This document shows positions 12,886 through 50,175 of a stretch of 64,000 bases of DNA, one piece after another. The notes below the pieces were generated by a model. It had not been told where the DNA came from, made no database searches, and saw only the letters and a program-made list of their open reading frames with translations. Positions within the stretch are counted from its first letter, which is position 1. The number at the start of each line of letters is the position of its first letter. The DNA lies in contig NZ_JBEJGX010000003.1 in the NCBI RefSeq assembly GCF_040253635.1, positions 5,543,501 to 5,607,500 on the forward strand. The letters run 5' to 3'. Both the position numbers and the translations under genes were made by a program. Source of the stretch: Streptomyces sp. Edi2 (GTDB taxonomy: Bacteria; Actinomycetota; Actinomycetes; Streptomycetales; Streptomycetaceae).

Positions 12886-13671
12886 ATGCCCGAGCCGACC
12901 CCGATACCCACCGATCAGCTGCAGTTCGCGATGCCGCCGACGCACCAGACCGTCGAGGACGAACGGCGACACCGTAAGGAGCGCCTGGTCGTGGCGCTGC
13001 GCCTGTTCGGGCACTACGGCTTCGAGGAGGGCGTCGCGGGCCATATCACCGTGCGCGACCCGGAGTTCCCCCACTGCTTCTGGGTCAATCCCTTCGGCAT
13101 GTCGTTCCGGCACCTCACGGTCAGTGATCTGCTGCTGGTGAACGCGGAGGGGAAGGTCATCCAGGGCCGCCACCACGTCAACCAGGCGGCGTTCGCCATC
13201 CACGCCCAGGTCCACCAGGCCCGGCCCGATGTCGTCGCGGCCGCCCACAGCCACTCCACGTACGGCCGGGCACTGTCCGCGCTGGGGGAGCTGCTGGACC
13301 CGATCACCCAGGACGTCTGTGCGTTCTACGAGGACCATGCGCTCTTCGACGACTACACGGGCGTGGTGGTGGACGAGGCGGAAGGCCGGCGGATCGCGGC
13401 CGCCCTCGGGCCGCACAAGGCGGTGATCCTGCGCAACCACGGCCTGCTGACGGTCGGCGACTCGGTGGACGCGGCGGCGTGGTGGTTCGTCACGATGGAA
13501 CGCTCCTGCCAGGTCCAGCTGACCGCGAAGGCCGCCGGCAAACCGGTACTGATCGACCACCACAACGCCGTCCGCACCCGCGAACAGCTGGGGAACGACC
13601 TGGTGGCCTGGATCAACTACCAGCCGCTGTACCAGCAGATCGTGCGCAGCGAGCCGGATCTTTTCGGATAG
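12886..13671 (+). CDS. Class II aldolase/adducin-family protein
   Basis: A 261-residue protein with the zinc-dependent class II aldolase fold. The metal-binding pair HSHSTYGR (near residue 121) and RNHGLLT (near residue 184) is present, as is the GHITVRDPE segment typical of fuculose-phosphate-aldolase relatives. Enzymes of this kind cleave or epimerise phosphorylated sugars, or decarboxylate or dehydrate related acids; the substrate cannot be assigned. The start ATG is preceded by AGGAGGAG at good spacing. It stands alone downstream of guaA and is convergent with the DUF4239 gene. Confidence 0.85.
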   Translation: MPEPTPIPTDQLQFAMPPTHQTVEDERRHRKERLVVALRLFGHYGFEEGVAGHITVRDPEFPHCFWVNPFGMSFRHLTVSDLLLVNAEGKVIQGRHHVNQAAFAIHAQVHQARPDVVAAAHSHSTYGRALSALGELLDPITQDVCAFYEDHALFDDYTGVVVDEAEGRRIAAALGPHKAVILRNHGLLTVGDSVDAAAWWFVTMERSCQVQLTAKAAGKPVLIDHHNAVRTREQLGNDLVAWINYQPLYQQIVRSEPDLFG

Positions 13672-13793
13672 GGCGGGCTCGGTGGCGGGGTCGGCGACAG
13701 GGTCGGCGGCCGTTCCGGTGGCAGGCTCTTCCGGATCGCCGTCCGGCCGGGCCCTGCGGTGCGGGCGGCCGTCCCGCAGGGCCCGGGGCCGTC

Positions 13794-14549
13794 TCACGGG
13801 TGCGGGAACAGATCGAAGAACGGTGCGGCGGCGGCGAGGCCCCGGCTGTAGGGCGCGTCGAAGTCCCAGACGAGGAACAGCAGGAAGGCGATCAACGCGC
13901 TGAAGAGTCCGGCCATCAGCAACTCCCGCCCCGAGCGCCGGATCTGCAGGGTGAACATGACGCCGATCGAAATGGCGCCGCCGATGATCAGCCCGAACCA
14001 CACCACGCCCGGAAGCGTCGAACCGGCCGCGTCCGCACGGGCGGAGCGGGCGCCGTCGGCCACCGCGACCTGGTCGACGAGGGGCTGGTAGGACTGCCCT
14101 TCGAAGTCGTTGCGCGGGCGGTAGTCGGTGACATCCGCCCGGACCTTCGTCAGCAGTGCGGTGCCGCGGTCGGTCAGTTCGCCCTTCTCGGCCATGACCG
14201 GCCATTCCTTGTGCACGACGTAGGACACATAGGTGCCGACGTCCGAGCGGATGCGGTCCCGGACCGGCGCGGGGTAGGCCCGGGCCCGCGCGCTGACCTC
14301 GTGCAGCGCCTGCGCCTCGGTCCGTACGGTGTCCTCGGCCGCGCTCCTGGCCTCCCAGACCCCGGCGATGGCCAGGCCCAGCACGATCGCGTACACCACC
14401 CCCACCATCATCGTCAGATACTCGATCACATCAGGCGTTTCGGTCGGGTCGTCGTCCTCGCTGATCCGGCGTTCCTTGAGGACGGTGATGGTCAGGACGA
14501 CGCCACAGGCGGCGACCATGGCGAGGGTCAGCACCAGCCATTGCGACAT
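13794..14549 (-). CDS. DUF4239 (bestrophin-like) membrane protein
   Basis: A 251-residue protein with two helices at the N-terminus (LVLTLAMVAACGVVLTITV and YLTMMVGVVYAIVLGLAIAG), a cytoplasmic or periplasmic helical middle, and two helices near the end (WFGLIIGGAISIGVMF and LLMAGLFSALIAFLLFLVW). This arrangement is that of DUF4239, described as bestrophin-like, so ion conduction is conceivable but unproven. AGGAGG lies six bases before the ATG. The upstream Pro-rich gene stops nine bases before the ribosome site region, so both are probably cotranscribed. Confidence 0.78.
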   Translation of the reverse strand: MSQWLVLTLAMVAACGVVLTITVLKERRISEDDDPTETPDVIEYLTMMVGVVYAIVLGLAIAGVWEARSAAEDTVRTEAQALHEVSARARAYPAPVRDRIRSDVGTYVSYVVHKEWPVMAEKGELTDRGTALLTKVRADVTDYRPRNDFEGQSYQPLVDQVAVADGARSARADAAGSTLPGVVWFGLIIGGAISIGVMFTLQIRRSGRELLMAGLFSALIAFLLFLVWDFDAPYSRGLAAAAPFFDLFPHP

Positions 14550-14558
14550 GGAGACCTC

Positions 14559-15239
14559 CTACGAGGAACGGCGCCCGGCGGAACCGGACGAGCTCGAACG
14601 GGGACGGAGGGCGGCTCCGGCCAATACGGCCGGGGCGGTGATCAGCAGAGTCGTGGTGACCATGGAGCGCCCGGCGCGCGGTTTGTGGGACACCGGCGCA
14701 TAGCTGCGGGGCAGGGCGGGCGGAGGTGACGCCGGGCGGCTGACGACCGGCTTGGGTTTGGGCTTGGGCTTGGGCTTGGGCGCCGGCTCGGGCGGCGGGG
14801 CCACGGGGCGTGCACGGGGTGGGGGCGGTGGAGGCGGCGGGGGTGGTGGTGTCGGCCGGGGTCTGGGCGCGGGCGGCCGTGGGGGCGCGGGCTTCGGGCT
14901 CGGTGGGCGGGGCGCCGGCTTGTGGGAGGCCGGGGGCGGGGGCTTGGTTTCGGTGCAGGGGAAGTGCCAGTGGCGGGGCATGGGGAAGCCGGTCGGTACG
15001 TCCACGGGGGGCGCGGTACCGGCATAGGCGCAGTTGTCGCCGGTCGGCGCGCGGTGGTGGCGGTCATGGGCGGTTGCCGTCGGCGCGCCGGCGAGCAGTG
15101 CGGCGGCACCGGTCAGGAGCAGGAGCGTGGCGGTGGTCAGAAGCACGGCGCCCAGGCGCAGGATGCCGCCGCGTTTGCCGAGTTCGCCGCGTCTGTCAAT
15201 GCCGCGGTGCGATCCATGAGGTCGGTGTATTTGGCACAC
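14559..15239 (-). CDS. Proline-rich envelope protein with N-terminal signal and C-terminal hydrophobic anchor
   Basis: A 226-residue protein. Residues about 27-55 form a signal or anchor helix (AVLLTTATLLLLTGAAALLAG). A short conserved-looking region follows (DNCAYAGTAPPVDVPTGFP) with two cysteines. Then come about 90 residues of proline-rich sequence including PPPPPPPPPPP and a (PK)n run. A second hydrophobic stretch (MVTTTLLITAPAVLAGAAL) with an Arg/Ser tail ends it. The tail resembles a sorting signal, yet there is no LPxTG motif, only LPRSY well upstream. The protein may span the wall. Start GTG 15239 is the first available; no clear ribosome site is seen. Confidence 0.6.
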   Translation of the reverse strand: MCQIHRPHGSHRGIDRRGELGKRGGILRLGAVLLTTATLLLLTGAAALLAGAPTATAHDRHHRAPTGDNCAYAGTAPPVDVPTGFPMPRHWHFPCTETKPPPPASHKPAPRPPSPKPAPPRPPAPRPRPTPPPPPPPPPPPRARPVAPPPEPAPKPKPKPKPKPVVSRPASPPPALPRSYAPVSHKPRAGRSMVTTTLLITAPAVLAGAALRPRSSSSGSAGRRSS

Positions 15240-31706: not shown

Positions 31707-31906
31707 GGCTGATGTTCGATATGCCCGAAACCTTTTTGTGACCTGAACGCGATGCGGGGGTTGTCATGGCAGATGTCGGATTCGGGTAGACGAGCCGCCG
31801 ACCGGTTTGCGAGCGCCCCGGACGCCTGACCTGCCGCGGTGCCACCGCCCGCGGCGAAAGCGGGCCGCAATCGGCTACTGGGCCGCGGGCTGTCAGTGCG
31901 GCCGCC

Positions 31907-31912
31907 TAGACT
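31907..31912 (+). promoter_or_regulatory. -10 box of pcrA, probably leaderless
   Basis: TAGACT lies nine bases before ATG 31922. There is no good Shine-Dalgarno site in between, so the message may begin at or next to the start codon. No -35 box is evident at the usual distance. Confidence 0.4.
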
Positions 31913-31921
31913 CGGTGGGCG

Positions 31922-34384
31922 ATGAGCAGCCTCTTTGACGACAGCTTCCTGGCGGACCTCGGCCACAAGGGCGAGGAGGAACCCCCTCCGCCCCCCGAGG
32001 ACGAGCACGGCCCGGCCCCCGAGGAGATCCCTGCCGACCTCTTCGGCGGGAGGTTCGACGCGCCCCCGCCCAGAGAGGCGTATTACCGCGACGGTGCCGC
32101 CCGCCCCGCCCTCGACCCGGCGACGCTGCTGGAAGGGCTCAACGACGAGCAGAAGGCCGCCGTGGTGCACACGGGCGGCCCGCTGCTGATCGTCGCCGGT
32201 GCCGGCTCCGGCAAGACCCGGGTGCTCACCCACCGCATCGCTCATCTGCTCGCCGAGCGCCATGTCCACCCCGGCCAGATCCTCGCGATCACGTTCACGA
32301 ACAAGGCCGCCGGCGAGATGAAGGAGCGCGTCGAGGAGCTGGTCGGCCCGCGCGCCAACGCCATGTGGGTCTCCACCTTCCACAGCGCCTGCGTCCGCAT
32401 CCTGCGCCGCGAGTCCAAGCAGTTGGGCTTCACCTCCTCCTTCTCCATCTACGACGCCGCCGACTCCAAGCGCCTGATGGCCCTGGTCTGCCGCGATCTG
32501 GACCTGGACCCCAAGCGCTACCCGCCCAAGTCCTTCAGCGCGAAGATCTCCAACCTCAAGAACGAGCTCATCGACGAGGAGACCTTCGCGGGGACGGCCG
32601 CCGACGGATTTGAGAAGACGCTGGCCGAGGCGTATGCGATGTACCAGGCGCGGCTGCGCGAGGCCAACGCCCTGGACTTCGACGACATCATCATGACGAC
32701 GGTCAATCTGCTCCAGGCCTTCCCGGACGTCGCCGAGCACTACCGCCGGCGCTTCCGCCATGTCCTCGTCGACGAGTACCAGGACACCAACCACGCCCAG
32801 TACACCCTCGTGCGTGAACTGGTCGGCCCCGGCACGGCCGAGATGCCCGCGGCCGAGCTGTGCGTCGTCGGTGACGCCGACCAGTCGATCTACGCCTTCC
32901 GCGGCGCCACGATCCGCAACATCCTCCAGTTCGAGGAGGACTACCCGGACGCGACCACGATCCTGCTGGAGCAGAACTACCGCTCCTCGCAGACCATCCT
33001 GTCCGCCGCCAACGCCGTCATCGAGCGCAATGAGAACCGCCGCCCCAAGAACCTCTGGACCGACGCCGGCGCCGGCCCCAAGATCACCGGCTATGTCGCC
33101 GACACCGAGCACGACGAGGCGCAGTTCGTCGCCGACGAGATCGACCGGCTGACCGACGCCGGTGACGCCAAGGCCGCCGAGGTCGCGGTCTTCTACCGCA
33201 CCAACGCCCAGTCCCGCGTCTTCGAAGAGATCTTCATCCGGGTCGGACTGCCCTACAAGGTCGTCGGCGGGGTGCGCTTCTACGAGCGCAAGGAGGTCCG
33301 CGATGTCCTCGCCTATCTGCGGGTGCTCAGCAACCCCGAGGACACCGTCCCGCTCCGCCGCATCCTGAACGTCCCCAAGCGCGGCATCGGCGACCGCGCC
33401 GAGGCGATGATCGACGCCCTGTCGCTGCGCGAGAAGATCACCTTCCCGCAGGCGCTGCGCCGGGTCGACGAGGCGTACGGCATGGCGGCCCGGTCCGCCA
33501 ACGCCGTCAAGCGCTTCAACGTCCTCATGGAGGAGCTGCGCACCATCGTCGAGTCCGGCGCCGGACCCGCCACGATCCTGGAAGCGGTCCTGGAGCGTAC
33601 GGGCTACCTCGCCGAACTCCAGGCCTCCACCGACCCCCAGGACGAGACCCGGATCGAAAACCTCCAGGAACTCGCCGCCGTGGCCCTGGAGTTCGAGCAG
33701 GACCGTGGCGAGGACAATCCGGGCACGCTCTCCGACTTCCTGGAGCAGGTCGCGCTGGTCGCCGACTCCGACCAGATCCCGGACGAGGACGAGGAGGGCA
33801 GCGGCGTGATCACGCTGATGACGCTGCACACCGCCAAGGGCCTGGAGTTCCCGACCGTCTTCCTGACCGGCCTGGAGGACGGCGTCTTCCCGCATATGCG
33901 CTCGCTGGGCCAGACCAAGGAGCTGGAGGAGGAGCGCCGGCTGGCCTATGTCGGCATCACCCGCGCCCGCGAGCGGCTCTACGTCACCCGCTCGACGATG
34001 CGCAGCGCCTGGGGCCAGCCCTCGTACAACCCGCCCTCCCGGTTCCTGGAGGAGATCCCGGCCGACCACCTGGAGTGGAAGCGCACGGGCCCGGCGACGC
34101 CGTCCGCGTCCATGGGCGGCCTGTCGGCGGGCGGAGGCGGCGGCTTCGGCTCCACGCTCTCGTCGTCGCGCGCCAAGGGCCCCAGCGGCTTCGCGACCCG
34201 CCGCGCCGGCGACCGTCCGGTGGTCTCCCTGACCATCGGCGACCGTGTCACCCACGACAGCTTCGGGCTCGGCACGGTCGTCGGCGTCAAGGGCAGCGGC
34301 GACAACGCCGAGGCGACGATCGACTTCGGCGGCGAGAAGCCGAAGCGGCTGCTGCTGCGGTATGCGCCGGTGGAGAAGCTGTAA
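31922..34384 (+). CDS. pcrA: ATP-dependent DNA helicase PcrA/UvrD (UvrD1)
   Basis: 820 residues of superfamily 1A helicase acting in nucleotide-excision repair and removal of RecA or stalled polymerase. After an acidic, Pro-rich N-terminal 60 residues come motif Q (LNDEQ), Walker A (GAGSGKTRVLTHR), motif II (VDEYQDTN), GDADQSIYAFRG, NYRSS, HTAKGLEFP and YVGITRAR. The C-terminus is a Tudor-like domain (about 770-820: VTHDSFGLGTVVGV), which binds RNA polymerase in PcrA. All catalytic motifs are intact and the length is normal. As in M. tuberculosis, an M23 peptidase gene lies beside it. Confidence 0.96.
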   Translation: MSSLFDDSFLADLGHKGEEEPPPPPEDEHGPAPEEIPADLFGGRFDAPPPREAYYRDGAARPALDPATLLEGLNDEQKAAVVHTGGPLLIVAGAGSGKTRVLTHRIAHLLAERHVHPGQILAITFTNKAAGEMKERVEELVGPRANAMWVSTFHSACVRILRRESKQLGFTSSFSIYDAADSKRLMALVCRDLDLDPKRYPPKSFSAKISNLKNELIDEETFAGTAADGFEKTLAEAYAMYQARLREANALDFDDIIMTTVNLLQAFPDVAEHYRRRFRHVLVDEYQDTNHAQYTLVRELVGPGTAEMPAAELCVVGDADQSIYAFRGATIRNILQFEEDYPDATTILLEQNYRSSQTILSAANAVIERNENRRPKNLWTDAGAGPKITGYVADTEHDEAQFVADEIDRLTDAGDAKAAEVAVFYRTNAQSRVFEEIFIRVGLPYKVVGGVRFYERKEVRDVLAYLRVLSNPEDTVPLRRILNVPKRGIGDRAEAMIDALSLREKITFPQALRRVDEAYGMAARSANAVKRFNVLMEELRTIVESGAGPATILEAVLERTGYLAELQASTDPQDETRIENLQELAAVALEFEQDRGEDNPGTLSDFLEQVALVADSDQIPDEDEEGSGVITLMTLHTAKGLEFPTVFLTGLEDGVFPHMRSLGQTKELEEERRLAYVGITRARERLYVTRSTMRSAWGQPSYNPPSRFLEEIPADHLEWKRTGPATPSASMGGLSAGGGGGFGSTLSSSRAKGPSGFATRRAGDRPVVSLTIGDRVTHDSFGLGTVVGVKGSGDNAEATIDFGGEKPKRLLLRYAPVEKL

Positions 34385-38847: not shown

Positions 38848-40800
38848 TCATGGGGCGAGGGGCTGTCGTGTGGCCCGGACCGGGCCGTGGGCCGGGGTGG
38901 TGTTAGGGCGGCCGGTGCCGGTGCCGGTGCCTGTGCCTGTGCCGCTGTCGCCCGTGCCGTCGTGGCCGGTCGGTTCCGGGGCGAGTTCCGCCTGCATGGT
39001 GGCGCGCAGGCGCAGGGTGCCGACCAGGCGCTGGAAGGCCTCGGACCAGTAGCCGCCGGAGCCGGGTGAGGCACCTTCCGGCTCGTCCGTGACGGCGGTG
39101 AGCATGGCGAGGCGGTCTGCCGCCGCCGGGTCCAGACAGCGCTCGGCCAGGCCCATCACCCCGCTGAAGCTCCACGGGTAGCTACCCGCGTCCCGGGCGA
39201 TGTCCAGCGCGTCGACGACGGCCCCGCCGAGCGGTTCGGCCCAGGGGACCGCGCACACGCCGAGCATCCGGAAGGCCTCCGACAGTCCGTGGGCCGCGAT
39301 GAACTCCGCGACCCACCGGGCGCGTTCGGCGTTGGGCAGTACGGTCAGCAGCTTGGTCAGGTCCCGCGACGAGCCGGCCGGCGCGACCTCGGCCGCCTGG
39401 GACGGAGCGCCCGGCGCACCCAGCAGCGCCCGCGCCCAGTCGGTGTTCCGCTGGCGCACCGCGGCGCGGCACCAGGCGTCGTGCAGCTCCGTCCGCCAGT
39501 CGTCGCCCACCGGCAGCGCGACGATCGCCGCCGCGTCGCGGCCCCCGAAGCGGGCGTGCCATCCGTCCAGCGGGGCCGCCTCCACCAACTGGCCCAACCA
39601 CCAGGACCGTTCGCCCCGCCCGGAGGGCGGCTTGGGCGCCACGCCGTCCCGCTGCATCCCGGCATCGCACTCGTGCGGCGCCTCCACGGCGATCGCCGGT
39701 GCGCCGGCCGTACGGTCCAGGCCGACGCAGGTGTGCGCGCGCTGCGCCATCCGGGCCGCGAGGGCGGATCCGGGCAGCGTGGAGAGCAGTTCGGCGGCCG
39801 TGGCGCGGACGTTCCGGCTGCGGTCGGACAGCGCCTGTTCCAGGAAGGGCTCATCAGCCGTCGAGAGCCCGTCGCGCAGCGAGTCGAGGAACATCAGACG
39901 GTCCTCGGCCCGCTCCGTGGGCCAGGTCGTGGACAGCAGTGCCAGGCCGGCCCCCGGGTCCTGGCGGCGCAGCGCGGTCAGCAGGGCGACCCGCTCGGCG
40001 AACAGGCCCTCCTCCCACCGGCGTCGTACGCCGTCGGGGCCATTGGGGCCATTGGGGCCATTGGGGCCATTGGGGCCGTTGGGGCTACCGGTGCCGGTGC
40101 CGGTGCCGTTGTCGCCGTCGTTGCCGGAGAGCTCGGCCGGGCCGCCGATCCCCCGGAGCGCGAACTTCCACTCCGCGTTGAGCCGCGCCAGCCACAGGGC
40201 GCGCGGCCCCGCCAGCGCCAGCGTGGCGGGACGCAGGTCCGTACGGGCGCGGGCCGCGTCGAGCAGTGCGGGCAGCAGCGCCTCCGGGGCCCGGTAGCCG
40301 TACTCACCGGCGGCGGCCAGCCACTGGGGGAGCAGTTCGGTGAGGTCAGGGGCCGTGCCGCGGCGGCTGCCGCCGCTGCCACCGCGGTCGGCGAGCAACA
40401 GGGCCAGCCGGCGGCGCGCGGCGGGCGGCAGCGGAGGCCGCGGGTCGGCCGGGGCCGGGGCGGGCCGTTCGCCGGCCGGGGCGGGGCGCAGCGCGGCACG
40501 GCGGCGCACCGTGCTCACCGCGGCCGCGTCCAGCAGTGCGGCCGCGGCACCCTGCCCGGAACGCACCGCCACCGGCGGCGTCCGCCGCTCGGTCCCCAGG
40601 AGCGCGGCGCTCACGAGATCGGCCCAGGGGGCCGGGGCGGTCGGGGTGGGGGCGGGAGAAGGAGGCGTGGCGGATGCGGATGTGGATGTGGATGTGGGTG
40701 CGGAGGCATGGGCCGGGACGGGAATGGGGGAGGTGGATGAAGCGAGTGACGTGGATGAAGCGGGTGAAGTGAGTGCAGTGGTCCTGGTGATGGTCGTCAT
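38848..40800 (-). CDS. DUF5691-family protein of the MoxR/vWA operon
   Basis: 650 residues, predicted mostly alpha-helical and HEAT-like. The first 55 residues are Ser/Thr/Pro/Ala low complexity. The conserved region starts at WADLVSAALLGTERRTP, the typical opening of DUF5691. Helical repeats such as EQALSDRSRNVRATAAELL follow. An (NGP)n tract is encoded by five 9-bp repeats at 40036-40080, and a (GT)n tract lies near the end. No catalytic motif is recognised; such helical-repeat proteins usually act as scaffolds. It follows the SWIM protein gene by 91 bases on the same strand, with GGAGGAAGG before the ATG. The other three genes of the set lie just past that gene, divergent. Confidence 0.8.
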   Translation of the reverse strand: MTTITRTTALTSPASSTSLASSTSPIPVPAHASAPTSTSTSASATPPSPAPTPTAPAPWADLVSAALLGTERRTPPVAVRSGQGAAAALLDAAAVSTVRRRAALRPAPAGERPAPAPADPRPPLPPAARRRLALLLADRGGSGGSRRGTAPDLTELLPQWLAAAGEYGYRAPEALLPALLDAARARTDLRPATLALAGPRALWLARLNAEWKFALRGIGGPAELSGNDGDNGTGTGTGSPNGPNGPNGPNGPNGPDGVRRRWEEGLFAERVALLTALRRQDPGAGLALLSTTWPTERAEDRLMFLDSLRDGLSTADEPFLEQALSDRSRNVRATAAELLSTLPGSALAARMAQRAHTCVGLDRTAGAPAIAVEAPHECDAGMQRDGVAPKPPSGRGERSWWLGQLVEAAPLDGWHARFGGRDAAAIVALPVGDDWRTELHDAWCRAAVRQRNTDWARALLGAPGAPSQAAEVAPAGSSRDLTKLLTVLPNAERARWVAEFIAAHGLSEAFRMLGVCAVPWAEPLGGAVVDALDIARDAGSYPWSFSGVMGLAERCLDPAAADRLAMLTAVTDEPEGASPGSGGYWSEAFQRLVGTLRLRATMQAELAPEPTGHDGTGDSGTGTGTGTGTGRPNTTPAHGPVRATRQPLAP

Positions 40801-40891
40801 GCCCTTCCTCCGGGATCGGTGGTGGACGGTGTGTGCGGCCGGCGGGGGACGGGGGTGAGGGGGCTGGTCGGCGGTGTGGTGGGGGGCCGGG

Positions 40892-42286
40892 TCACAGGGA
40901 CACCGGGGCCGGGTCCCAGGCGGTCAGCGGCAGGAAGCCGCGGTGGCCGCATTCGCCGAAGACCGTGATCGGCGCCCCGCCCGATATGGCGGCCAGCTGC
41001 CACAGGCTCGTCTGTGCCGGACCGCGCGGGTCCAGTGGCAGTGCCGACTCCCCGTCCGCGTCGGCTAGTTGCCAGCCCTTGCCGTCGCGGCCGGGGATCG
41101 GGGTGACCTCGGCGAGCACCACCGGCCAGGAATCCAGCCACGGGTCGTCGCGCAGAGCGTCGCCGTACGCGGCCAGGGCGGCGTCGATACCGCAGCCCGA
41201 CGGCACCGGACCCGGGACCGCGGGGGCGTGCCGCTCGCCCAGGGCGGCGCGCAGCGGGCGGGCGCCGGGGTAGTAGGCGAGGTCCGCATCGAGCACCAGA
41301 CCGGGGGGCAGGGCCAGAGCCGGCGGGCGGTGGGCCCCGCCGCCGAAGGAGAGGTGCAGCGCCATCCGGCCGGTCCGCTCGCCCCGGAGGAAGATTCTGC
41401 GGGTGGTCAACGTGCCGTCATCGGTGTCCTGTTGGGCGAGCACCAGCCAGCGGTCCCGGACCGTCGCCGCCTCAGGGCCGGTCAGCAGGTCCGCCGCCTC
41501 CGTGGTCAGCCCCACGCGGGAGCGGACCGTCGCCGCGAGCGGGGCCGGCAGCCGCTCGATGCCGAGGAACCCCTGGTCGAGGAGGTGCAGCAGGGCGCAC
41601 TCCTCCAGCAGCCGGGCCGGCCAGTCCGGACCGGACGCCATGACCGCACTCAGCTCGCGCACCCGCGAGGCGAGTCCGGGCGCCTGGGCGTCGACCATGC
41701 GGGCGGCCGTCTCGCCCCAGGAGCCCCCTCCGCCACCGCCTGGCCGGGAGGTCTCCCCGTCGGTGCGGCCGGCCGAGGCCAGCCCCGACTGGAGCAGATC
41801 CTCCAGGCGCTGCTCCAGCTCCGTCGCACCGGCGCCGATCCGCTGCATCCGGCGCTCCGCGCGCCGCTTGGCGGCCTCCGGGTCGGCAGGCGCCCGCGAG
41901 GGAGCGCCGCCGCCCGGGCCCTGGCCCGCGGACCGCTCGGCGCGCTCCCGGCGTCCGGCCAGCCACTCGCCCGCCCACGACGCCGGTTCCCCCACCGTCA
42001 CCTCCCGGCCGTCGCCCGCCCAGAGCAGCAGCAGCCCCAGCGCGTGCTTGCACGGAAATTTGCGGCTCGGGCAACTGCACTTGAAGGCCGGGCCGTTGAG
42101 GTCCACGACCGTTTGGTACGGCTTCTTGCCGCTGCCCTTGCACTGCCCCCACACCGCGCTCGCGTCCGCGCCCGTTTCCGACCACGGACCCGGCGCCGCG
42201 AGCTTGCCGCCCGCCCTGCGCGAGGCCTCGTCAGGCGCCAGCGCGAGCACCTGATCCGTCGTCCAGCGTTCCCCCTGCGGATTCAT
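40892..42286 (-). CDS. SWIM zinc-finger protein (YehQ-like)
   Basis: 464 residues. The SWIM motif CxCx6CxH is intact as Cys70, Cys72, Cys79 and His81 (KCSCPSRKFPCKH), preceded by QTVVDLNGPAF, the usual strand pair. SWIM fingers bind DNA or proteins. The long C-terminal part (about 150-464) is helical, then beta-rich, and lacks recognised enzyme motifs; it fits the YehQ-type SWIM protein encoded beside yehLMP in E. coli. The start is ATG 42286; the possible -10 TAGCGT lies only seven bases upstream, suggesting a near-leaderless message. First gene of the leftward pair with DUF5691. Confidence 0.83.
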   Translation of the reverse strand: MNPQGERWTTDQVLALAPDEASRRAGGKLAAPGPWSETGADASAVWGQCKGSGKKPYQTVVDLNGPAFKCSCPSRKFPCKHALGLLLLWAGDGREVTVGEPASWAGEWLAGRRERAERSAGQGPGGGAPSRAPADPEAAKRRAERRMQRIGAGATELEQRLEDLLQSGLASAGRTDGETSRPGGGGGGSWGETAARMVDAQAPGLASRVRELSAVMASGPDWPARLLEECALLHLLDQGFLGIERLPAPLAATVRSRVGLTTEAADLLTGPEAATVRDRWLVLAQQDTDDGTLTTRRIFLRGERTGRMALHLSFGGGAHRPPALALPPGLVLDADLAYYPGARPLRAALGERHAPAVPGPVPSGCGIDAALAAYGDALRDDPWLDSWPVVLAEVTPIPGRDGKGWQLADADGESALPLDPRGPAQTSLWQLAAISGGAPITVFGECGHRGFLPLTAWDPAPVSL

Positions 42287-42306
42287 GTCTTCGACGCTAC
42301 GACGCC

Positions 42307-42375
42307 CCACTGACAATCGCCGCGGATCGCGATGAACTCGCAGGCCAGGATGGGTTTTCGGGGGATTGTCAGTGG
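42307..42375. promoter_or_regulatory. 12-bp perfect inverted repeat in the divergent promoter of the MoxR/vWA gene set
   Basis: CCACTGACAATC (42307-42318) and GATTGTCAGTGG (42364-42375) are exact inverted copies separated by 45 bases. Each arm carries TTGTCA pointing outward, so each could be a -35 box for one of the two divergent transcripts, or both arms could be half-sites of one regulator. The SWIM start codon is at 42286 and the AAA start at 42454. Confidence 0.65.
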
Positions 42376-42453
42376 CGTGGTGCAGGCTTGATTCCGCAAG
42401 CGGCCGCAGGGATTTCGCCGTCCCGGCCGCACACGTTGCGACGAGGGGGAACC

Positions 42454-43608
42454 ATGTCCGAGAACAGCTTCACGACGACGGACGACGAGACCGATGCGAA
42501 CGGCGGGACGGCGCCGCAAGGCGGGGGCGGCCAAGCGCTGCGACCGCACGCCGAGGACAGTTTCGCGGCGGAGTTGAAGGCCCTCGCGGCGGCCGACGAC
42601 CGGCCGCGCCCGGAGCGCTGGCGGCTCTCGCCGTGGGCGGTCGCGACCTACCTCCTCGGCGGCACCCTCGCGGACGGCACGGTCATCACACCCAAGTACG
42701 TCGGCCCGCGCCGGATCGTCGAGGTCGCCGTGACGACCTTGGCGACGGACCGTGCACTGCTCCTGCTGGGCGTGCCCGGCACCGCGAAGACCTGGGTGTC
42801 CGAGCATCTGGCGGCGGCCGTCAGCGGCGACTCCACCCTGCTGGTCCAGGGCACGGCCGGCACCCCCGAAGAGGCGATCCGCTACGGCTGGAACTACGCC
42901 CAGCTGCTCGCCAACGGCCCCAGCCGCGAGGCGCTGGTGCCCAGCCCGGTGATGCGCGCGATGGCACAGGGCATGACCGCACGGGTCGAGGAACTGACCC
43001 GCATCCCCGCCGACGTCCAGGACACGCTCATCACGGTCCTGTCGGAGAAGACCCTGCCCATCCCGGAGCTGGGGCAGGAGGTGCAGGCCGTCCGCGGCTT
43101 CAACCTGATCGCCACCGCCAACGACCGCGACCGCGGCGTCAACGAACTCTCCAGCGCGCTGCGCCGCCGCTTCAACACCGTCGTCCTGCCGCTGCCCGCC
43201 ACCCCGGACGAAGAGGTGGACATCGTCTCGCGCCGGGTCGAGCAGATCGGGCGCTCGCTGGATCTCCCGGCCGGTCCTGAGGGGCTGGACGAGATCCGCC
43301 GGGTCGTCACGGTCTTCCGCGAGCTGCGGGCCGGCCTCAGCTCCGACGGCCGCACCAAGCTCAAGTCGCCGTCCGGCACCCTCTCCACGGCCGAGGCCAT
43401 CTCGGTGGTGACGAACGGGCTGGCGCTGGCCGCCCACTTCGGGGACGGTGTGCTGCGCGCCGGGGACGTGGCCGCGGGCATCCTGGGGGCCGTGGTCCGC
43501 GATCCGGCGGCGGACCGGGTCGTATGGCAGGAGTACCTGGAGACCGTGGTGCGCGAGCGCGACGGCTGGAAGGACTTCTACCGCGCCTGCCGTGAGGTGA
43601 GCGCATGA
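42454..43608 (+). CDS. MoxR-type AAA+ ATPase (YehL-like)
   Basis: 384 residues. After a 40-residue acidic, Gly-rich start comes the AAA+ core with Walker A GVPGTAKT at about residue 106. The Walker B region is RVEELTRIPADVQDTLITVL, with acidic EE. Then come sensor-1 IATANDRDRG and the arginine-finger region SSALRRRF. MoxR ATPases work with vWA proteins as chaperones that insert metals or assemble complexes. The family is the one including E. coli YehL. GGGGGAACC lies before ATG 42454, and the stop overlaps the next start (ATGA), so stoichiometric expression with the DUF5682 protein is likely. Confidence 0.9.
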   Translation: MSENSFTTTDDETDANGGTAPQGGGGQALRPHAEDSFAAELKALAAADDRPRPERWRLSPWAVATYLLGGTLADGTVITPKYVGPRRIVEVAVTTLATDRALLLLGVPGTAKTWVSEHLAAAVSGDSTLLVQGTAGTPEEAIRYGWNYAQLLANGPSREALVPSPVMRAMAQGMTARVEELTRIPADVQDTLITVLSEKTLPIPELGQEVQAVRGFNLIATANDRDRGVNELSSALRRRFNTVVLPLPATPDEEVDIVSRRVEQIGRSLDLPAGPEGLDEIRRVVTVFRELRAGLSSDGRTKLKSPSGTLSTAEAISVVTNGLALAAHFGDGVLRAGDVAAGILGAVVRDPAADRVVWQEYLETVVRERDGWKDFYRACREVSA

Positions 43609-46253
43609 CCGGGCCGGTACTGCTCGGGGTGCGGCACCACGGCCCTGGCTCGGCGCGGGCGGTGCGTGCCGCCCTCAACCAGTGTATGCCGGACGCGGTC
43701 CTGATCGAGGGGCCGCCGGAGGCGGACGCGCTGGTGCCGTTGGCCGCCCAGGAGGGGATGCGCCCGCCCGTCGCGCTGCTCGCCCATGCCACGGACGATC
43801 CCGGCCGCGCGGCGTTCTGGCCGCTGGCCGAGTTCTCCCCGGAGTGGGTGGCGATGCGCTGGGCACTGGAGCACGGCGTCCCCGTCCGCTTCATCGACCT
43901 GCCCGCGGCGCACTCCCTGGCGATGGGGGACGGCGAGGGGGCGGTGTCCGGTGAGGGGCCAGTGACTGGTGGGGGGCCGGCGGCCGGCGAGGACGCGGTG
44001 ACCGGTGAGGGGCCGGCCGACGGCCTTCCGGCCGATGGGCCTCCGGCGAACGGGCTTCCGGCCGACGGGCCCCCGGCCGACGGGCCCCCGGCCGCAGGAC
44101 AGGCGCAGGAAGAGCTGCCCGCCGAGGCCGAGGTGCGGGTCGATCCGATCCGGGTGCTGGCCGAGACGGCCGGGTACGACGATCCCGAGCGCTGGTGGGA
44201 GGACGTGGTCGAACACCGCGGGGGCGCGGGAGGAGCAGGGGCCGGAGGGGGCGCCGGTGCGGATGCGCTGGCTCCGTTCGCGGCCCTCGCCGAGGCGATG
44301 GGGGCGCTGCGCGAGGCGTACGGGGACGGCGGCCATGACCGTGATCCGGTGCGCGAGGCCCATATGCGGCTGCGACTGCGCGCCGCCCGAAAGGAGTTCG
44401 GGGACGATATCGCCGTGGTGTGCGGTGCCTGGCACGTACCGGCCCTGGCGCGACGCACCACCATGGCCGCCGACCGGCAGCTGCTCAAGGGCCTGCCGAA
44501 GGTGAAGGCGGCGGTGACCTGGGTGCCCTGGACGCACCAACGGCTCTCCCGCCACAGCGGCTACGGCGCCGGTATCGCCTCACCGGGCTGGTACGGCCAT
44601 CTCTTCGGCGCCCCCGACCGCCCCGTGGAACGCTGGCTGACCAAGGTCGCCGGGCTGCTCCGCGAAGAGGACTACGCGGTCTCGTCGGCGCATGTCATCG
44701 AAGCGGTGCGGCTCGCCGAGGGGCTGGCCACGGTACGCGGCCGCCCGCTGGCCGGACTGACGGAACTGAACGACGCGGTCCGGGCCGTGATGGGGGATGG
44801 CTCCGATGCGCCGTCCTCGCTGATCCACGACCGGCTGGTGGTGGGGGAGGTGCTGGGCGAGGTTCCCCAGGATGCCCCCGCGGTGCCGCTGCAACGGGAC
44901 CTCACCCGCAGCCAGCGCACGCTGCGGCTCAAACCGGAGGCCCCGGAACGGGAACTGGCGCTGGACCTGCGCAAGGAGACCGACGCCGGCCGCAGCCGCC
45001 TGCTGCACCGGCTCCGGCTGCTCGGCATCCCGTGGGGCGAGCCCGAGCGCTCCCGGGGCGGCACCGGCACGTTCCGGGAGACCTGGCGGTTGCGCTGGGA
45101 GCCCGAACTGTCGGTGCGGGTCGCGGAGGCCGGCATCTGGGGCACGACCGTGCTCTCGGCCGCCACGGCCAAGGCCGCGTCCGAGGCGTCCGGGGCGGCC
45201 ACGCTCGCCGAGGTCACGGCGCTCGCCGAGCGCTGCCTGCTGGCCGGACTCCCCGACGCCCTCCCGGTGGTGATGCGCGCGCTGTCGGACCGTGCGGCGC
45301 TGGACGCGGACGTGGGCCATCTCGCCCAGGCACTCCCCGCCCTCGTACGGTCCGTGCGCTACGGCGATGTGCGCGGCACGGACGCCGCGGCGCTGCGCGA
45401 GGTGGCGACGGGCCTGGCCGAGCGCGTCTTCGTCGGACTGCCCCCCGCCTGCCTGGGGCTGGATGCCGACGGCGCCGCCGACATGCGCCGCCACCTCGAC
45501 GCCACCCACCAGGCCGTCGGCCTCCTCGGCCAGCCACAGGCCAGGCCGCAGACCGGGCCGGAGCCCGGACCGGAGCCCGGACCGGAGCCCGGGCAGCAGA
45601 CCGGGCCGGAGCCCGGCCCACAGCCCGGCCCACAGCCCGGCCCGCAGCACCTGCGGACGCGGTGGGCCGGGGTGCTGCGGGCCGTGAGTGAACGGGACGC
45701 CGTACCGGGCCTGATCCGCGGGCGGGCGGCCAGACTCCTGCTCGACGAAGGGGAGTTGGGCGACGGGGGAGCGGAGCGGCTGATGGGGCTCGCCCTCTCG
45801 CCGGGCACCCCGCCCACCGACGCCGCCGGCTGGATCGAGGGATTCGTCGGCGGCGGGGACGGCGGCATGCTGCTGGTCCACGACGAACGGCTGCTCGCGC
45901 TGGTCGACGGCTGGCTGACCGGTGTGCCGGACGCCGCGTTCACGGACGTTCTGCCACTGCTGCGGCGGACCTTCGCGGAGTACGAGGCCGGTGTCCGGCG
46001 CACCCTCGGCGAACTGGTCCGTCGCGGCCCCACGGCCCCGTCCCGCCACCCGGCCGACGGCACGCCGGACGCCGCCGCCAACGGCTTCGGCCCCGGCCTG
46101 GACCGCGACCGCGCCGCGGCCGTCCTCCCCACCCTGCGCCTGCTGCTGGGGATCGGAGCGCCCGGCTTCGCCGACGAGCCCGGCGAGCGGCCGGACGACG
46201 ACCCACCGGACACCACCCGACCGGCCGACGACCTCACGGGGGCACGGACATGA
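43605..46253 (+). CDS. DUF5682-family protein (YehM-like)
   Basis: 882 residues, the largest member of the set. It starts with GVRHHGPGSARAV and VLIEGPPEAD, the DUF5682 opening, which recalls the TraB/ChaN-like fold with conserved His and Glu (GxRHHGP...IEGP). VVCGAWHVPAL near residue 275 adds a conserved histidine, so a metal-dependent activity is conceivable but unproven. Two disordered linkers interrupt it: an ADGPPA/GEGPVT repeat (about 115-165) and a PEPGPQPG repeat (about 645-680). Start and stop both overlap neighbours by four bases, so it is translationally coupled to both the AAA ATPase and the vWA gene. Confidence 0.85.
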   Translation: MTGPVLLGVRHHGPGSARAVRAALNQCMPDAVLIEGPPEADALVPLAAQEGMRPPVALLAHATDDPGRAAFWPLAEFSPEWVAMRWALEHGVPVRFIDLPAAHSLAMGDGEGAVSGEGPVTGGGPAAGEDAVTGEGPADGLPADGPPANGLPADGPPADGPPAAGQAQEELPAEAEVRVDPIRVLAETAGYDDPERWWEDVVEHRGGAGGAGAGGGAGADALAPFAALAEAMGALREAYGDGGHDRDPVREAHMRLRLRAARKEFGDDIAVVCGAWHVPALARRTTMAADRQLLKGLPKVKAAVTWVPWTHQRLSRHSGYGAGIASPGWYGHLFGAPDRPVERWLTKVAGLLREEDYAVSSAHVIEAVRLAEGLATVRGRPLAGLTELNDAVRAVMGDGSDAPSSLIHDRLVVGEVLGEVPQDAPAVPLQRDLTRSQRTLRLKPEAPERELALDLRKETDAGRSRLLHRLRLLGIPWGEPERSRGGTGTFRETWRLRWEPELSVRVAEAGIWGTTVLSAATAKAASEASGAATLAEVTALAERCLLAGLPDALPVVMRALSDRAALDADVGHLAQALPALVRSVRYGDVRGTDAAALREVATGLAERVFVGLPPACLGLDADGAADMRRHLDATHQAVGLLGQPQARPQTGPEPGPEPGPEPGQQTGPEPGPQPGPQPGPQHLRTRWAGVLRAVSERDAVPGLIRGRAARLLLDEGELGDGGAERLMGLALSPGTPPTDAAGWIEGFVGGGDGGMLLVHDERLLALVDGWLTGVPDAAFTDVLPLLRRTFAEYEAGVRRTLGELVRRGPTAPSRHPADGTPDAAANGFGPGLDRDRAAAVLPTLRLLLGIGAPGFADEPGERPDDDPPDTTRPADDLTGART

Positions 46254-47554
46254 CCCACCCGACACCGGACAACCTGACGACGACGGATACGACCACCGCC
46301 CCGGCGACAGCAACGAGCACGACTGCGGCCCTGGCGAGCGCAACGCACACGACTGCCGCCCCCACGACTGCCGCCCCCACCGGCGCCCCCACCCCCGAGG
46401 CCGAACGGCTGCGCCGCTGGCGGCTGGTGCTCGGTGGTGGCGGTGCGGACGGTACGGGGTGTCAGCTTCGGGGGCGGGACGCGGCGATGGACGGGGCGCT
46501 CGCCTCGCTCTACGGCCGGGAGAAGGGCAGCGGCGGCACGGCACCCGCCGGCAGGCGCTCGGCGGGGCTCGGGGCTTCGGCGCCCGGGGTGGCGCGCTGG
46601 CTCGGCGACATCCGTACGTACTTCCCGTCCTCCGTGGTGCAGGTGATGCAGCGGGACGCCATCGACCGGCTGGGGCTGTCCGCACTGCTGCTGGAGCCGG
46701 AGATGCTGGAGGCCGTCGAGGCGGATGTGCATCTGGTGGGCACGCTGCTCTCGCTCAACAAGGTCATGCCGGAGACCACCAAGGAGACCGCCCGCGCCGT
46801 CGTCCGCAAGGTCGTCGAGCAGTTGGAGAAGAAGCTGGCGCAGCGCACCCGCGCCACCCTCACCGGCGCACTGGACCGCTCCGCCCGGATCAGCCGGCCG
46901 CGGCATCGCGACATCGACTGGAACCGCACGATCCGGGCGAACCTCAAGAACTACCTCCCGGAGTACCGCACGGTCGTCCCCGAGCGGCTGATCGGCTACG
47001 GCCGCGCGGCGCAGTCGGTGAAGAAGGACGTGGTGCTCTGCATCGACCAGTCCGGCTCGATGGCCGCCTCGGTCGTCTACGCCTCGGTGTTCGGCGCGGT
47101 GCTCGCCTCCATGCGGGCCCTCGACACCCGGCTCGTCGTCTTCGACACCTCGGTCGTCGACCTGACGGACCAACTGGACGACCCGGTGGACGTCCTCTTC
47201 GGCACCCAGCTCGGCGGCGGCACGGACATCAACCGTGCGCTCGCCTACTGCCAGTCCCGCATCACCCGCCCCACCGAAACCGTCGTCGTCCTCATCAGCG
47301 ACCTCTACGAGGGCGGCATCCGGGACGAGATGCTGAAGCGGGTCGCCGCGATGAAGGCGTCCGGCGTGCAGTTCGTGACCTTGCTGGCGCTCTCCGACGA
47401 GGGGGCGCCCGCCTACGACCGCGACCACGCCGCCGCCCTCGCGGCCCTGGGCGCACCGGCGTTCGCCTGCACCCCGGATCTGTTTCCGGACGTGATGGCG
47501 GCCGCGATCGAGAAACGGCCGCTGCCCATACCGGACATGGCGGAGCAACGGTGA
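46250..47554 (+). CDS. vWA-domain protein with intact MIDAS (YehP-like)
   Basis: 434 residues. A Thr/Ala/Pro-rich N-terminal 45 residues precedes an all-helical domain containing RDAIDRLGLSALLLEPEML and a conserved KKLAQRTRATLTGAL region. The C-terminal von Willebrand A domain has the complete MIDAS: DQSGSM near residue 265, the TD of GGGTDIN, and LISDLYEGG. MIDAS domains bind Mg2+ and a partner's acidic residue, typically the MoxR ATPase or a substrate. Start ATG overlaps the DUF5682 stop. Last gene of the rightward operon. Confidence 0.9.
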   Translation: MTHPTPDNLTTTDTTTAPATATSTTAALASATHTTAAPTTAAPTGAPTPEAERLRRWRLVLGGGGADGTGCQLRGRDAAMDGALASLYGREKGSGGTAPAGRRSAGLGASAPGVARWLGDIRTYFPSSVVQVMQRDAIDRLGLSALLLEPEMLEAVEADVHLVGTLLSLNKVMPETTKETARAVVRKVVEQLEKKLAQRTRATLTGALDRSARISRPRHRDIDWNRTIRANLKNYLPEYRTVVPERLIGYGRAAQSVKKDVVLCIDQSGSMAASVVYASVFGAVLASMRALDTRLVVFDTSVVDLTDQLDDPVDVLFGTQLGGGTDINRALAYCQSRITRPTETVVVLISDLYEGGIRDEMLKRVAAMKASGVQFVTLLALSDEGAPAYDRDHAAALAALGAPAFACTPDLFPDVMAAAIEKRPLPIPDMAEQR

Positions 47555-47649: not shown

Positions 47650-48564
47650 ATGCCCCGGCTGTCCCCGTCCGTAGGGGAAGGTCCCTCCTTGTCTGCTGTG
47701 CTCGCCCTGCCTGCCGCCGTGCGCCTCCCGCGCACCGTGGCCGCGCGGCGTGCGCTGCTGGCCGGGCTCTTCCTGGTGGGCTTTGTCGCCCTCGGCTTCG
47801 CCTTCGGTCCCGGCGCCCATGCCGACGACCGCACGGGCAGCGCGGACCTGACCGGGGTGGCAACCCCGGCCAAGACCGCGGCCGAGGCGTCCGGTCCGGA
47901 CCGGGCCGCCACCCGGGACGGGGCGGCGAACGGGCTGTCCGGCTCCAGGGCCGCGCTCCAGCGGCAGGGCAACGCGTCCGGCGCGAAGCTCGCCGAGCAC
48001 ACCCACCCCGCGTCCGGCGCGGTGGCCAAGGCCGTACGTCCCGCCGCCGAGCAGGCCGCGCCGGTCACCGACCGGATCACCGAGCCGGTGAACCGTGTCG
48101 TACGGGAGGTCGGGGACTCGGCAGGCGCCGCGCTTCCCGTGCACCTCCCCTCCGGCGAGCACACCGGAGGCTCCGGAGACGGCGCCACGCATCAGCACGG
48201 CCGTACGCCGGGCGACGCTCAGCCGGCCGGTCCGCGGACCGCTGACCAGGCTGCCGGCCCGTCCGCCGCGCCGTCGTCGGATGTCGCCGACTGCCTGCAC
48301 AAGACGGCGGCCGAGCACCCCTCGGCCGCCGCCCACGATCAGCACGCCCCGGGCCGCAACGGCCTTCCGGGACAGTGCCCGCAGGCTCCGGTGGCGCCTG
48401 CCTCGCACACCGCCGGTGACGGCCACGGTCCCCGTGGCGGGGACCAGCACGCCGCCGCCCCGGCGGACCCTCTGCGCTTCCGGCTCCTGCCCGGTGGCGT
48501 CCGCACGGCCGATGGCGCTCCGACGCGTCGGCGTGCCGAAGAAATCCTCGAATTCCCGGGCTAG
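47650..48564 (+). CDS. Secreted Ala/His/Gly-rich protein of unknown function
   Basis: 304 residues. A signal peptide (about 30-56: ALLAGLFLVGFVALGFAFG) ends at AHADD. The mature part has no recognised domain: helical segments such as AVRPAAEQAAPVTDRITEP and a His/Gly/Pro-rich C-terminus with two cysteines (VADCLHK and PGQCPQA). Start is ambiguous: ATG 47650 (GAGG upstream) or a TTG near 47689 with GGGGAAGG before it. The next gene encodes a larger secreted repeat protein and starts about 90 bases after a terminator-like hairpin; the pair may form a surface-protein locus. Confidence 0.7.
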   Translation: MPRLSPSVGEGPSLSAVLALPAAVRLPRTVAARRALLAGLFLVGFVALGFAFGPGAHADDRTGSADLTGVATPAKTAAEASGPDRAATRDGAANGLSGSRAALQRQGNASGAKLAEHTHPASGAVAKAVRPAAEQAAPVTDRITEPVNRVVREVGDSAGAALPVHLPSGEHTGGSGDGATHQHGRTPGDAQPAGPRTADQAAGPSAAPSSDVADCLHKTAAEHPSAAAHDQHAPGRNGLPGQCPQAPVAPASHTAGDGHGPRGGDQHAAAPADPLRFRLLPGGVRTADGAPTRRRAEEILEFPG

Positions 48565-48657: not shown

Positions 48658-50175
48658 ATGCGCTCGAACATTCGCCGTTCCATCGTCGTTGCCACCGCCG
48701 CCACCGGTCTGTGGGCCCTGGGCTCCGTCGCCGCCAACGCCGCCGAGCTGCCCGTCGGCTCGGACCTGCCGGCCGCCGGCACGGTGACCGACACCGCGAA
48801 GCAGCTGCCCACCGGTGACGTGTCCGGCACCGTGACGAAGACGGCCAAGACCGTCACCACGACCGCCAAGAGCGCCACCACGACCGCCAAGAAGACGGCG
48901 GGCAAGGCCACCGGTGCCCTCGGCGGCGACGCGACCACCCAGGACCTGCCCACCGGCACGCTGCCGCAGGCCGGCGACCTGACCGGTGTGGTGGACGGCG
49001 TGCGGAAGCAGGCCCACGGCGCCGGCCTGCCGAAGACCGGTGAGGTGCGCAAGGCCGCCGACCTGAAGAAGGCCAAGAAGGCCGCCAAGGCCGTCAAGAA
49101 GGCCGCCCAGGCCGCCGACCTGGGCAAGGCCGGCCGCCTGGCGAAGGGCACGCTGCCCTCCGTTCCGTCGCTGCCCGCCACCCCGGGCGTCCCGTCCGCC
49201 CACCTGCCCGGCGGCCTGCCCCAGGGCCTGCCCGGCACCCCGGCGCTGCCCAAGGCCCCCGCGCTGCCCAAGACTCCGGGCTCGGTCGACAACCTGCTGG
49301 CCGGTCTCGCCGGTGCGGGCGTCCGTCCCGAGCAGCTGACGAAGCCGGTCCAGGGCGGTCTGGCCACCGCCCGTCCGGTCGTCGGCAAGGCGGCCTCCGA
49401 CGCGCTGCCGCCCGTCGCCCGCCGGGTCGTCGTCAAGGTCGTGCCGGTCGCGCAGGGCGCGGTCGGCGGTGCCGGTCACCTCGCCGGTGACGCGGCCGGC
49501 CAGGCCACCCCGTTCGTGATCACGGTCGGCGGCCAGGCGCAGCTGTTCGCACAGGGTGCGGCCGGTGACGCGGTGCCCTTCGCCCAGGGCGTGGCCGGCG
49601 ACGCGGTCCCGTTCGCGCAGGGTGCGGCCGGTGACGCGGCGCCGTTCGTCCAGGGCAAGGCGACCGACACCGTGGCGTTCGCCCGGGGCGCGGCCGCTGA
49701 CGCCACCCCGTTCGCGCAGGGTCTGACCGCCGTTGTCGCGACCGACGCGCAGGGCACCGCAGGCCAGGCCGTCGCCGGTGTACGGGACCTGGCCCCGGTG
49801 AAGTCGGTGCCGGCCGTTCCCGCCGTTCCGTCCGTTCCCGCGGTGCCGGCCAACGTGACCGACGCCGTCCCGGCCGTTCCGGCTGTGCCCGCCGTCCCGG
49901 CCAACGTGACTGACGCCGTGCCGGCCGTCCCCTCCGTCCCCTCCGTCCCGTCCGTCCCCGCGGTGCCGGCCAACGTGACCGACGCGCTCCCGTCCGTTCC
50001 CTCGGTCCCGTCCGTTCCCTCGGTCCCGGCCGTCCCTGCCAACCTGGCCGACGCCGTTGCCGCCCCGGCCGCCCCGGCCCTCCCGGCCGTGCCCGCCAAC
50101 CTGGCCGACCTGACCAACGCCGCCAACATCCCGGCGCTGCCGGCCCTCCCGGCCCTCCCGGTCCAGGCGGTCTGA
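48658..50175 (+). CDS. Large secreted repeat protein (Val-Pro, Ala-Gln-Gly and Lys-Thr repeats)
   Basis: 505 residues with a signal peptide (1-28, cut after ANAAE). Four repeat zones follow: Thr/Lys-rich (VTKTAKTVTTTAKSATTTAK, about 55-85), Ala/Lys helical (about 135-165), 11-residue units like GDAVPFAQGAA (about 280-345), and Val-Pro-Ala units such as VPAVPANVTDA (about 380-505). No enzyme domain, LPxTG motif or membrane anchor is visible. The Lys-rich helices and the beta-like VPAVP repeats suggest a wall-associated or hydrophobic surface protein. GAAGGA lies ten bases before the ATG. I cannot name a family. Confidence 0.72.
   Translation: MRSNIRRSIVVATAATGLWALGSVAANAAELPVGSDLPAAGTVTDTAKQLPTGDVSGTVTKTAKTVTTTAKSATTTAKKTAGKATGALGGDATTQDLPTGTLPQAGDLTGVVDGVRKQAHGAGLPKTGEVRKAADLKKAKKAAKAVKKAAQAADLGKAGRLAKGTLPSVPSLPATPGVPSAHLPGGLPQGLPGTPALPKAPALPKTPGSVDNLLAGLAGAGVRPEQLTKPVQGGLATARPVVGKAASDALPPVARRVVVKVVPVAQGAVGGAGHLAGDAAGQATPFVITVGGQAQLFAQGAAGDAVPFAQGVAGDAVPFAQGAAGDAAPFVQGKATDTVAFARGAAADATPFAQGLTAVVATDAQGTAGQAVAGVRDLAPVKSVPAVPAVPSVPAVPANVTDAVPAVPAVPAVPANVTDAVPAVPSVPSVPSVPAVPANVTDALPSVPSVPSVPSVPAVPANLADAVAAPAAPALPAVPANLADLTNAANIPALPALPALPVQAV

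Follow-up and report, generated by a model that had tools for sequence, protein, structure and literature searches.

The window analysed here, a stretch of 64,000 nucleotides from Streptomyces sp. Edi2, contains between positions 38848 and 47554 five genes in two diverging units, which form a conserved, closed module, with both halves lying behind a divergent promoter pair of the RecA-independent DNA-damage type (RecA-NDp), the leftward promoter being exact and the rightward one near. The leftward unit consists of a gene for a SWIM zinc-finger protein (40892..42286, minus strand; 464 residues from an ATG at 42286; PF04434, E 7.4e-6) followed by a second gene for a 650-residue DUF5691 protein (38848..40800, minus strand; PF18944, E 6.9e-176, residues 61-606). 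The rightward unit encodes a YehL-like AAA+ ATPase of the MoxR type (42454..43608, plus strand; 384 residues from an ATG at 42454; AAA_5, E 5.8e-37), an 882-residue DUF5682 protein (43605..46253, plus strand; PF18934, E 1.3e-297) and a 434-residue CoxE-like von Willebrand factor A (vWA) protein (46250..47554, plus strand; VWA_CoxE, E 3.5e-61), the metal-ion-dependent adhesion site (MIDAS) of which is intact (DQSGS, GGGTD, LISD). Open reading frame (ORF) positions and Pfam matches agree with the gene places and family identities given in the first-pass annotation of this DNA, and the stop/start overlaps that it described in the rightward operon are present as four shared bases at both the AAA-DUF5682 and the DUF5682-vWA junctions (42388-43608 / 43605-46253 / 46250-47554, with AAA as the listed ORF). 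None of the five proteins exceeds a cut-off in NCBIfam.

The starts of the AAA and SWIM genes need correcting, because the mechanically listed TTG codons (42388 and 42316, respectively) are probably not the real ones. For the AAA gene the more likely start is ATG 42454, with GAGGGGGAACC, resembling a ribosome-binding site, ahead of it, and for the SWIM gene the likely start is ATG 42286, 7 bases past the TAnnnT of its promoter. The divergent region shared by the two units is therefore 42287-42453 (167 bases), which fits the single promoter region that had been proposed for them.

The motifs expected of a MoxR ATPase paired with a MIDAS vWA protein are well conserved, which supports the pairing suggested earlier. 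The Walker A motif GxPGT[AG]K[TS] of the AAA protein is kept in 89/89 aligned rows, all of which, E. coli YehL included, have R-x-E-E at the Walker B position; MoxR proteins usually carry Asp-Glu there together with an LxDRF-like stretch, and we read R-x-E-E as standing in for the Asp-Glu. At the position of the LxDRF-like stretch the same 89-row alignment has A-[LM]-x-[RL]-R-F. YehL is a recognised MoxR subfamily, according to the accessible text of PMC3893208. Of 91 rows of the vWA family, 87 have DQSGS and 84 have GGGTD at the MIDAS, and the window protein matches the ViaA model weakly (E 1.1e-4; 21.6 bits, where the cut-off is 500). The zinc ligands CxC...CxH of the SWIM protein are constant in all 76 rows with letters there (80 rows in total).

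The promoter facing the SWIM-DUF5691 unit (TTGTCAGTG-N8-TAGCGT; 42294..42316, minus strand) matches the RecA-NDp consensus exactly, and the one facing the AAA-DUF5682-vWA unit (TTGTCAGTG-N8-CAGGCT; 42366..42388, plus strand) has the first nine bases exact and CAnnnT in place of TAnnnT. The two outward-facing elements, as read from the sequence, form a perfect 12-bp inverted repeat at 42307..42375 (CCACTGACAATC, 42307-42318; GATTGTCAGTGG, 42364-42375). The consensus is given as tTGTCRgtg-8 nt-TannnT in the part of the source available (PMC5656591), and PafBC is described, in similarly partial texts, as acting through this type of promoter (PMC6789036, PMC8223512).

In the genome of this strain 41 exact RecA-NDp sites are found, and none with the reversed-pattern control; 40 of the sites were read, the 41st (contig C6) having the same letters as the first. 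Mechanical picking of downstream ORFs gave 42 candidates, some of which may be the wrong gene, and 30 of them were scanned with Pfam, the other 12 being poorly coding by eye, duplicates or the cluster itself. Eleven of the 30 scanned proteins are uracil-DNA glycosylase, RarA/MgsA, RuvC, RecD2-HHH, UvrB, O6-methylguanine methyltransferase, DnaE, AlkZ-like, DnaX, UvrD and RecA; the others belong to unrelated families, e.g., two amidases, an ABC transporter and an aldolase, or (five) have no Pfam match. One of these five, with 5e3b as its best match in the PDB, is a macrodomain protein that resembles SCO6735, for which a RecA-NDp promoter and UV induction have been published (PMC5087735, seen in part). 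In 19 of the 42 candidate ORFs, SWIM included, the start codon lies 6-7 nt past TAnnnT, as in a leaderless message, when the earliest ATG or GTG is preferred. Two tandem WYL genes, among 14 WYL matches in the genome, are separated from a Pup ligase match by some 2.3 kb and, by place and domain, are as expected of PafB and PafC. The module thus resembles the PafBC regulon in promoter letters, spacing and start codon position, and differs from it in that known repair enzymes are replaced by what would be a multi-gene remodelling machine. A 'von Willebrand factor' protein of M. smegmatis, MSMEG_5511, which may or may not be the vWA protein of this module, is reported to be lower in a pafBC deletion in the available part of PMC5656591.

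A further site with one mismatch (CTGTCAGTG-N8-TAGACT) lies in the window at 31890-31912 (plus strand), nine bases ahead of a gene for an 820-residue PcrA/UvrD helicase (31922-34384, plus strand), which is therefore a second probable damage-inducible gene in the region.

The promoters are conserved together with the genes in the Streptomyces-type loci. Among the 36 actinobacterial loci with SWIM that were compared, the window included (one further locus, L031, was excluded because its contig lacks SWIM), all 15 Streptomyces-type loci have at least 8 of the 9 core bases and TAnnnT towards SWIM, as well as a second site of at least 8/9 with CAnnnT towards AAA. Seven of the 21 other loci (L003, L042, L043, L052, L068, L081, L091) have at least 7/9 with TAnnnT, 41-44 bases before the start of the SWIM profile, and L072 has the 9/9 core with two of the three -10 bases. 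Sites with at least 8/9 and a full -10 number 19 in 15.5 kb of upstream stretches, compared with 3 in 785 kb elsewhere. The chance of seven or more among the 21 loci is 3.8e-22 with cluster hits left out of the background and 4.6e-19 with them kept, figures to be read in the knowledge that the threshold was chosen after seeing the data and that related genera are not independent.

DUF5682 loci were gathered from a genome collection with a DUF5682 alignment headed by a Deinococcus sequence, so that the sample is conditional on DUF5682; 578 of at least 591 matched stretches encode relatives, the best 80 were kept, and families were called by running profiles built from the window and related proteins against all ORFs. 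The 80 loci represent about ten phyla (Planctomycetota, Pseudomonadota, Cyanobacteria, Chloroflexi, Actinomycetota, Bacteroidota, Verrucomicrobia, Acidobacteria, Armatimonadetes and others, partly inferred from genus names), and the full set of five families is present in 72 of them. In 58 of the 72, including three that carry an additional hit, the order is SWIM-DUF5691-AAA-DUF5682-vWA in a single direction, and in the remaining 14, all Streptomyces or Streptantibioticus, the SWIM-DUF5691 half is inverted as in the window. Five of the eight incomplete loci (L017, L031, L034, L036, L050) are short contigs or lie at a contig end. Of the other three (L027, L032, L083), L083, from an Acaryochloris metagenome-assembled genome, has DUF5682 without the other four families and L027 has DUF5682 and vWA only, both with several kb of flank present. 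The Deinococcus and Fusobacterium relatives come from the plasmid collection.

Within the phylum, 21 of 296 sampled genomes have DUF5682 and 18 have DUF5691 above its cut-off; each of these 18 DUF5691 genes shares a contig with DUF5682 and is no more than about 3.5 kb away from it. In three further genomes the DUF5691 hits fall below the cut-off and DUF5682 is absent. Co-occurrence of the families, which had been named beforehand as a test, is thus seen both in this sample and in the 72 complete loci. SWIM and DUF5691 are one protein in seven loci of Bacteroidota, Planctomycetota and Actinomycetota (L006, L014, L019, L023, L038, L066, L072), and DUF5682 and vWA are fused in one, a replicon of S. 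atratus (L010).

The neighbourhood of the module bears on two other explanations of its function. Neighbours were compared by BLAST within 6 kb, a search that very divergent ones could escape, with L001 (the window's own gene), L012 and L013 excluded from neighbour and distance counts and the window itself also from the neighbour count. Among the 25 largest shared-neighbour groups no specific group spans phyla; nearly all are confined to Streptomyces-type loci, and the two wider ones (10 and 7 loci) are generic by eye. The neighbours that recur in up to 13 Streptomyces-type loci are represented in the window by the PcrA/UvrD helicase, an M23 peptidase, a B12-binding protein and sucC-sucD. Directly after the vWA gene the window has two plus-strand ORFs (47650-48564 and 48658-50175) with no Pfam family at E 1e-5, the second with VPAVPSVP-like repeats and, by eye, a start like that of a secreted protein.

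A conserved client enzyme beside the module was sought in the same 25 groups and none was found, which counts against a maturation chaperone, i.e., an AAA-vWA pair inserting a metal or cofactor into a client, as NorQD does for cNOR, with DUF5682 carrying the cofactor on a fold shared with haem-binding ChaN and with damage induction being secondary, e.g., through the renewal of an oxidised metalloenzyme. SWIM and DUF5691 are not known to have a place in the metal-insertion pairs described, which also speaks against this explanation, and we consider it unlikely.

Still less probable, in our view, is a conflict system, directed against phages or otherwise, that would sense damaged or foreign nucleoprotein and then kill or block. 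Ternary conflict systems of MoxR and vWA with further neighbouring components have been described (Kaur et al., 2020; PMC7159879, available in part), and this overall composition is shared by the module, which is patchily distributed across the phylum (21/296 genomes); relatives also occur in 36 plasmid records from several phyla, some of them chromosome-sized, and one (L011) adjoins a type I restriction system. Pfam (E 0.001; without a dedicated VMAP or iSTAND comparison) shows in the five proteins no VMAP, iSTAND, FtsH or beta-propeller component of those systems, save a bpMoxR match, and neither 'SWIM' nor 'yeh' occurs in the available text of PMC7159879. Against a conflict system, this bpMoxR match is below its cut-off, PADLOC matched none of the five proteins, all nine listed same-genus genomes, the present one included, have both DUF5682 and DUF5691, and none is listed without them. 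The chromosomal neighbours recur across Streptomyces-type loci as described above, and the parts of the module are constant, with no variable effector in most loci. A phage origin was likewise considered and rejected, a scan of IMG/VR viral contigs with two conserved patterns having turned up no relative among its 23 pattern matches. A record entered as 'Bacteriophage sp.' but unverified (L012, MT835988), which carries AAA-DUF5682-vWA, is probably a bacterial contig, because one of its genes is RarA-like by eye.

The largest protein of the module provides the second line of evidence. The whole-length AlphaFold2 model of DUF5682 (predicted local distance difference test score, pLDDT, 83.9; predicted template-modelling score, pTM, 0.80) shows in a fold search a HEAT/ARM-like helical repeat at about residues 430-810 (44892..46034, plus strand), and this search was uninformative on the N-terminal domain because the helical repeats dominated it; the N-terminal domain was therefore folded alone. 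In the Kribbella orthologue it gave a model (pLDDT 88.3) with a parallel beta-sheet core, as in the TIKI/TraB/ChaN superfamily, and with structural matches to the TIKI/TraB/ChaN/esterase fold. In the window protein this domain comprises residues 1-358 (43605..44678, plus strand) and contains GVRHH (H11), E35, FIDLP (D98), R250-E251...M254 and GAWH (H277). The conserved His and Glu residues remarked on in the first-pass annotation are borne out by alignment, in which the R, H, E, D, R-E, M and H positions are constant in 94/94 rows, not all of them independent and one being the window's own gene.

The layout of these residues, a GxxH, a Glu some 25-30 residues later and a second GxxH, is shared by the three families compared: G5-H8, E32 and G193-H196 are invariant in 55/55 DUF5682 N-domain sequences, G16-H19, E45 and G240-H243 in 23/23 TraB sequences and G14-H17, E45 and G197-H200 in 12/12 ChaN sequences, the positions having been matched by order and spacing and not by superposed atoms. 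DUF5682 thus resembles the TIKI/TraB/ChaN/erythromycin-esterase superfamily in the fold and the GxxH...E...GxxH layout, and differs in its long HEAT-like repeat, its AAA-vWA partners and a sequence similarity near the limit of detection. Pfam TraB gives E 0.18 on one DUF5682 relative, below the cut-off, and a PDB sequence search with DUF5682 profiles gave no credible match. Because the TraB profile, searched by sequence against the PDB, found no TraB structure, the identity of the Tetrahymena chain rests on a figure legend in PMC10060162, a source available in part, in which the chain is unnamed. The genome of this strain contains no member of the TraB family. Fold and motif together support the prediction that DUF5682 has an N-terminal domain of this superfamily, with its His-Glu-His kept, followed by a HEAT-like repeat.

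Of the 2His/2Glu set known from RRSP and Ere, two His and one Glu are clear in DUF5682 and the Glu two residues before the first His is absent; inactive superfamily members do exist, e.g., PMT without the 2His/2Glu motif (PMC6254334, in the portion available). The domain could accordingly be a dead TIKI-fold scaffold and the module a pure ATP-driven remodeller, an unfoldase or disassembly factor acting on damaged DNA without hydrolysis. Against this, the same Glu is missing from the TraB alignment as well, and a dead scaffold would have no need of the His, Glu and His that are invariant in all 94 rows; we regard this explanation as rather doubtful.

Four of the five families had been equated with yehL, yehM, yehP and yehQ of E. 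coli, and this holds: in K-12 these genes are annotated, at putative, uncharacterised or domain level only, as AAA, uncharacterised, vWA and SWIM, and YehM matches DUF5682 with E 2.4e-98. The K-12 order is yehF (PF05406), yehH (a pseudogene), yehI (DUF4132), yehK, yehL, yehM, yehP and yehQ. The E. coli cluster thus resembles the window in having AAA, DUF5682, vWA and SWIM in one direction, and differs in lacking DUF5691, in its upstream PF05406 and DUF4132 genes, in having SWIM last and in the absence of a LexA box from the region (0 found, 0.39 expected by chance). PF05406 is the WGR family, which is known from poly(ADP-ribose) polymerases, and its presence in clusters of the E. coli type would likewise be consistent with a link to DNA damage.

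Clusters like that of E. coli, in which DUF4132 genes are present and DUF5691 gives no hit, are also found on an Iodobacter plasmid and on the S. atratus replicon; the genome of this strain has no DUF4132 gene. On the S. atratus replicon the long DUF5682-vWA fusion lies inside the DUF4132-type cluster (1872-14582), and long DUF5682 proteins are also present in Streptomyces species. A RecA-NDp site with one mismatch (1765-1787) precedes the first DUF4132 gene there by about 85 bases; matches with up to two mismatches arise in 53 of 200 shuffles of this locus, and the site alone is only suggestive. Among literature titles, searched without subscription journals and preprints, no study of the function of the module and no paper on DUF5682 was found.

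Taken together, these data lead us to propose, with about equal weight for and against, a damage-induced MoxR-vWA remodelling machine that carries a TIKI-fold hydrolase and clears or reactivates protein complexes on damaged DNA; damage induction, hydrolysis, substrate and complex formation are what we infer. The operons would be switched on by DNA damage and the five genes would yield one ATP-driven protein-remodelling machine, in which the MIDAS vWA protein may act as the partner of the MoxR AAA ring, by analogy with NorQ-NorD and RavA-ViaA. Recruitment to DNA, or to a nucleoprotein on damaged DNA, would fall to the SWIM-DUF5691 arm; the bound protein would be pulled or remodelled by the AAA-vWA ring and handed to DUF5682, and DUF5682, tied to vWA as its fusion in one lineage suggests, would hydrolyse a bond in that protein or its modification. 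In a more specific version, which is improbable as it stands, a PafBC-induced MoxR-vWA ring would strip DNA-bound or crosslinked proteins, targeted by the SWIM-DUF5691 arm (WGR-DUF4132 in the E. coli type), and the DUF5682 TIKI-fold domain would cleave them as a protease. Among the jobs first considered for the module, action on DNA-protein complexes has gained regulatory support, whereas metal insertion is without a client enzyme among the shared neighbours and an anti-phage role finds little support in PADLOC, IMG/VR, the same-genus genomes or the neighbours.

Several results weigh against a damage-induced hydrolytic machine. Fourteen of the 21 non-Streptomyces actinobacterial loci fall below the motif threshold, and the stretches upstream of SWIM in the 44 non-actinobacterial loci (220 bases or fewer per locus; 20 in L022 and 133 in L064) contain no exact LexA box and a RecA-NDp-like site only in L070, with two mismatches. 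The Foldseek scores of the DUF5682 N-domain are weak, and hhalign comparisons of the DUF5682 profile with superfamily profiles reach 0.6-10%, always at the second GxxH, compared with 67% for TraB against ChaN. The mycobacterial PafBC motif has moreover been stated, in the available part of PMC9380542, not to be conserved in S. venezuelae. In the present Streptomyces genome, as against that published remark, a RecA-NDp regulon is readable in the exact sites (L134-L173).

The YehL subfamily and MoxR-vWA systems are known, and what is new is a version made up of five parts, with a TIKI domain as well as a damage-type promoter. The module shares with NorQ-NorD and RavA-ViaA the MoxR AAA protein and its MIDAS vWA partner, and is distinguished from them by three extra conserved proteins, by the absence of a client enzyme seen alongside and by a DNA-damage-type promoter in Streptomyces. 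The promoter link gives the module a testable job and the TIKI-type domain predicts an active site in DUF5682, its largest protein, so that the open question posed by the y-genes of E. coli becomes one of simple experiments; with a function of this kind, the response of actinobacteria to damage would gain a remodelling machine.

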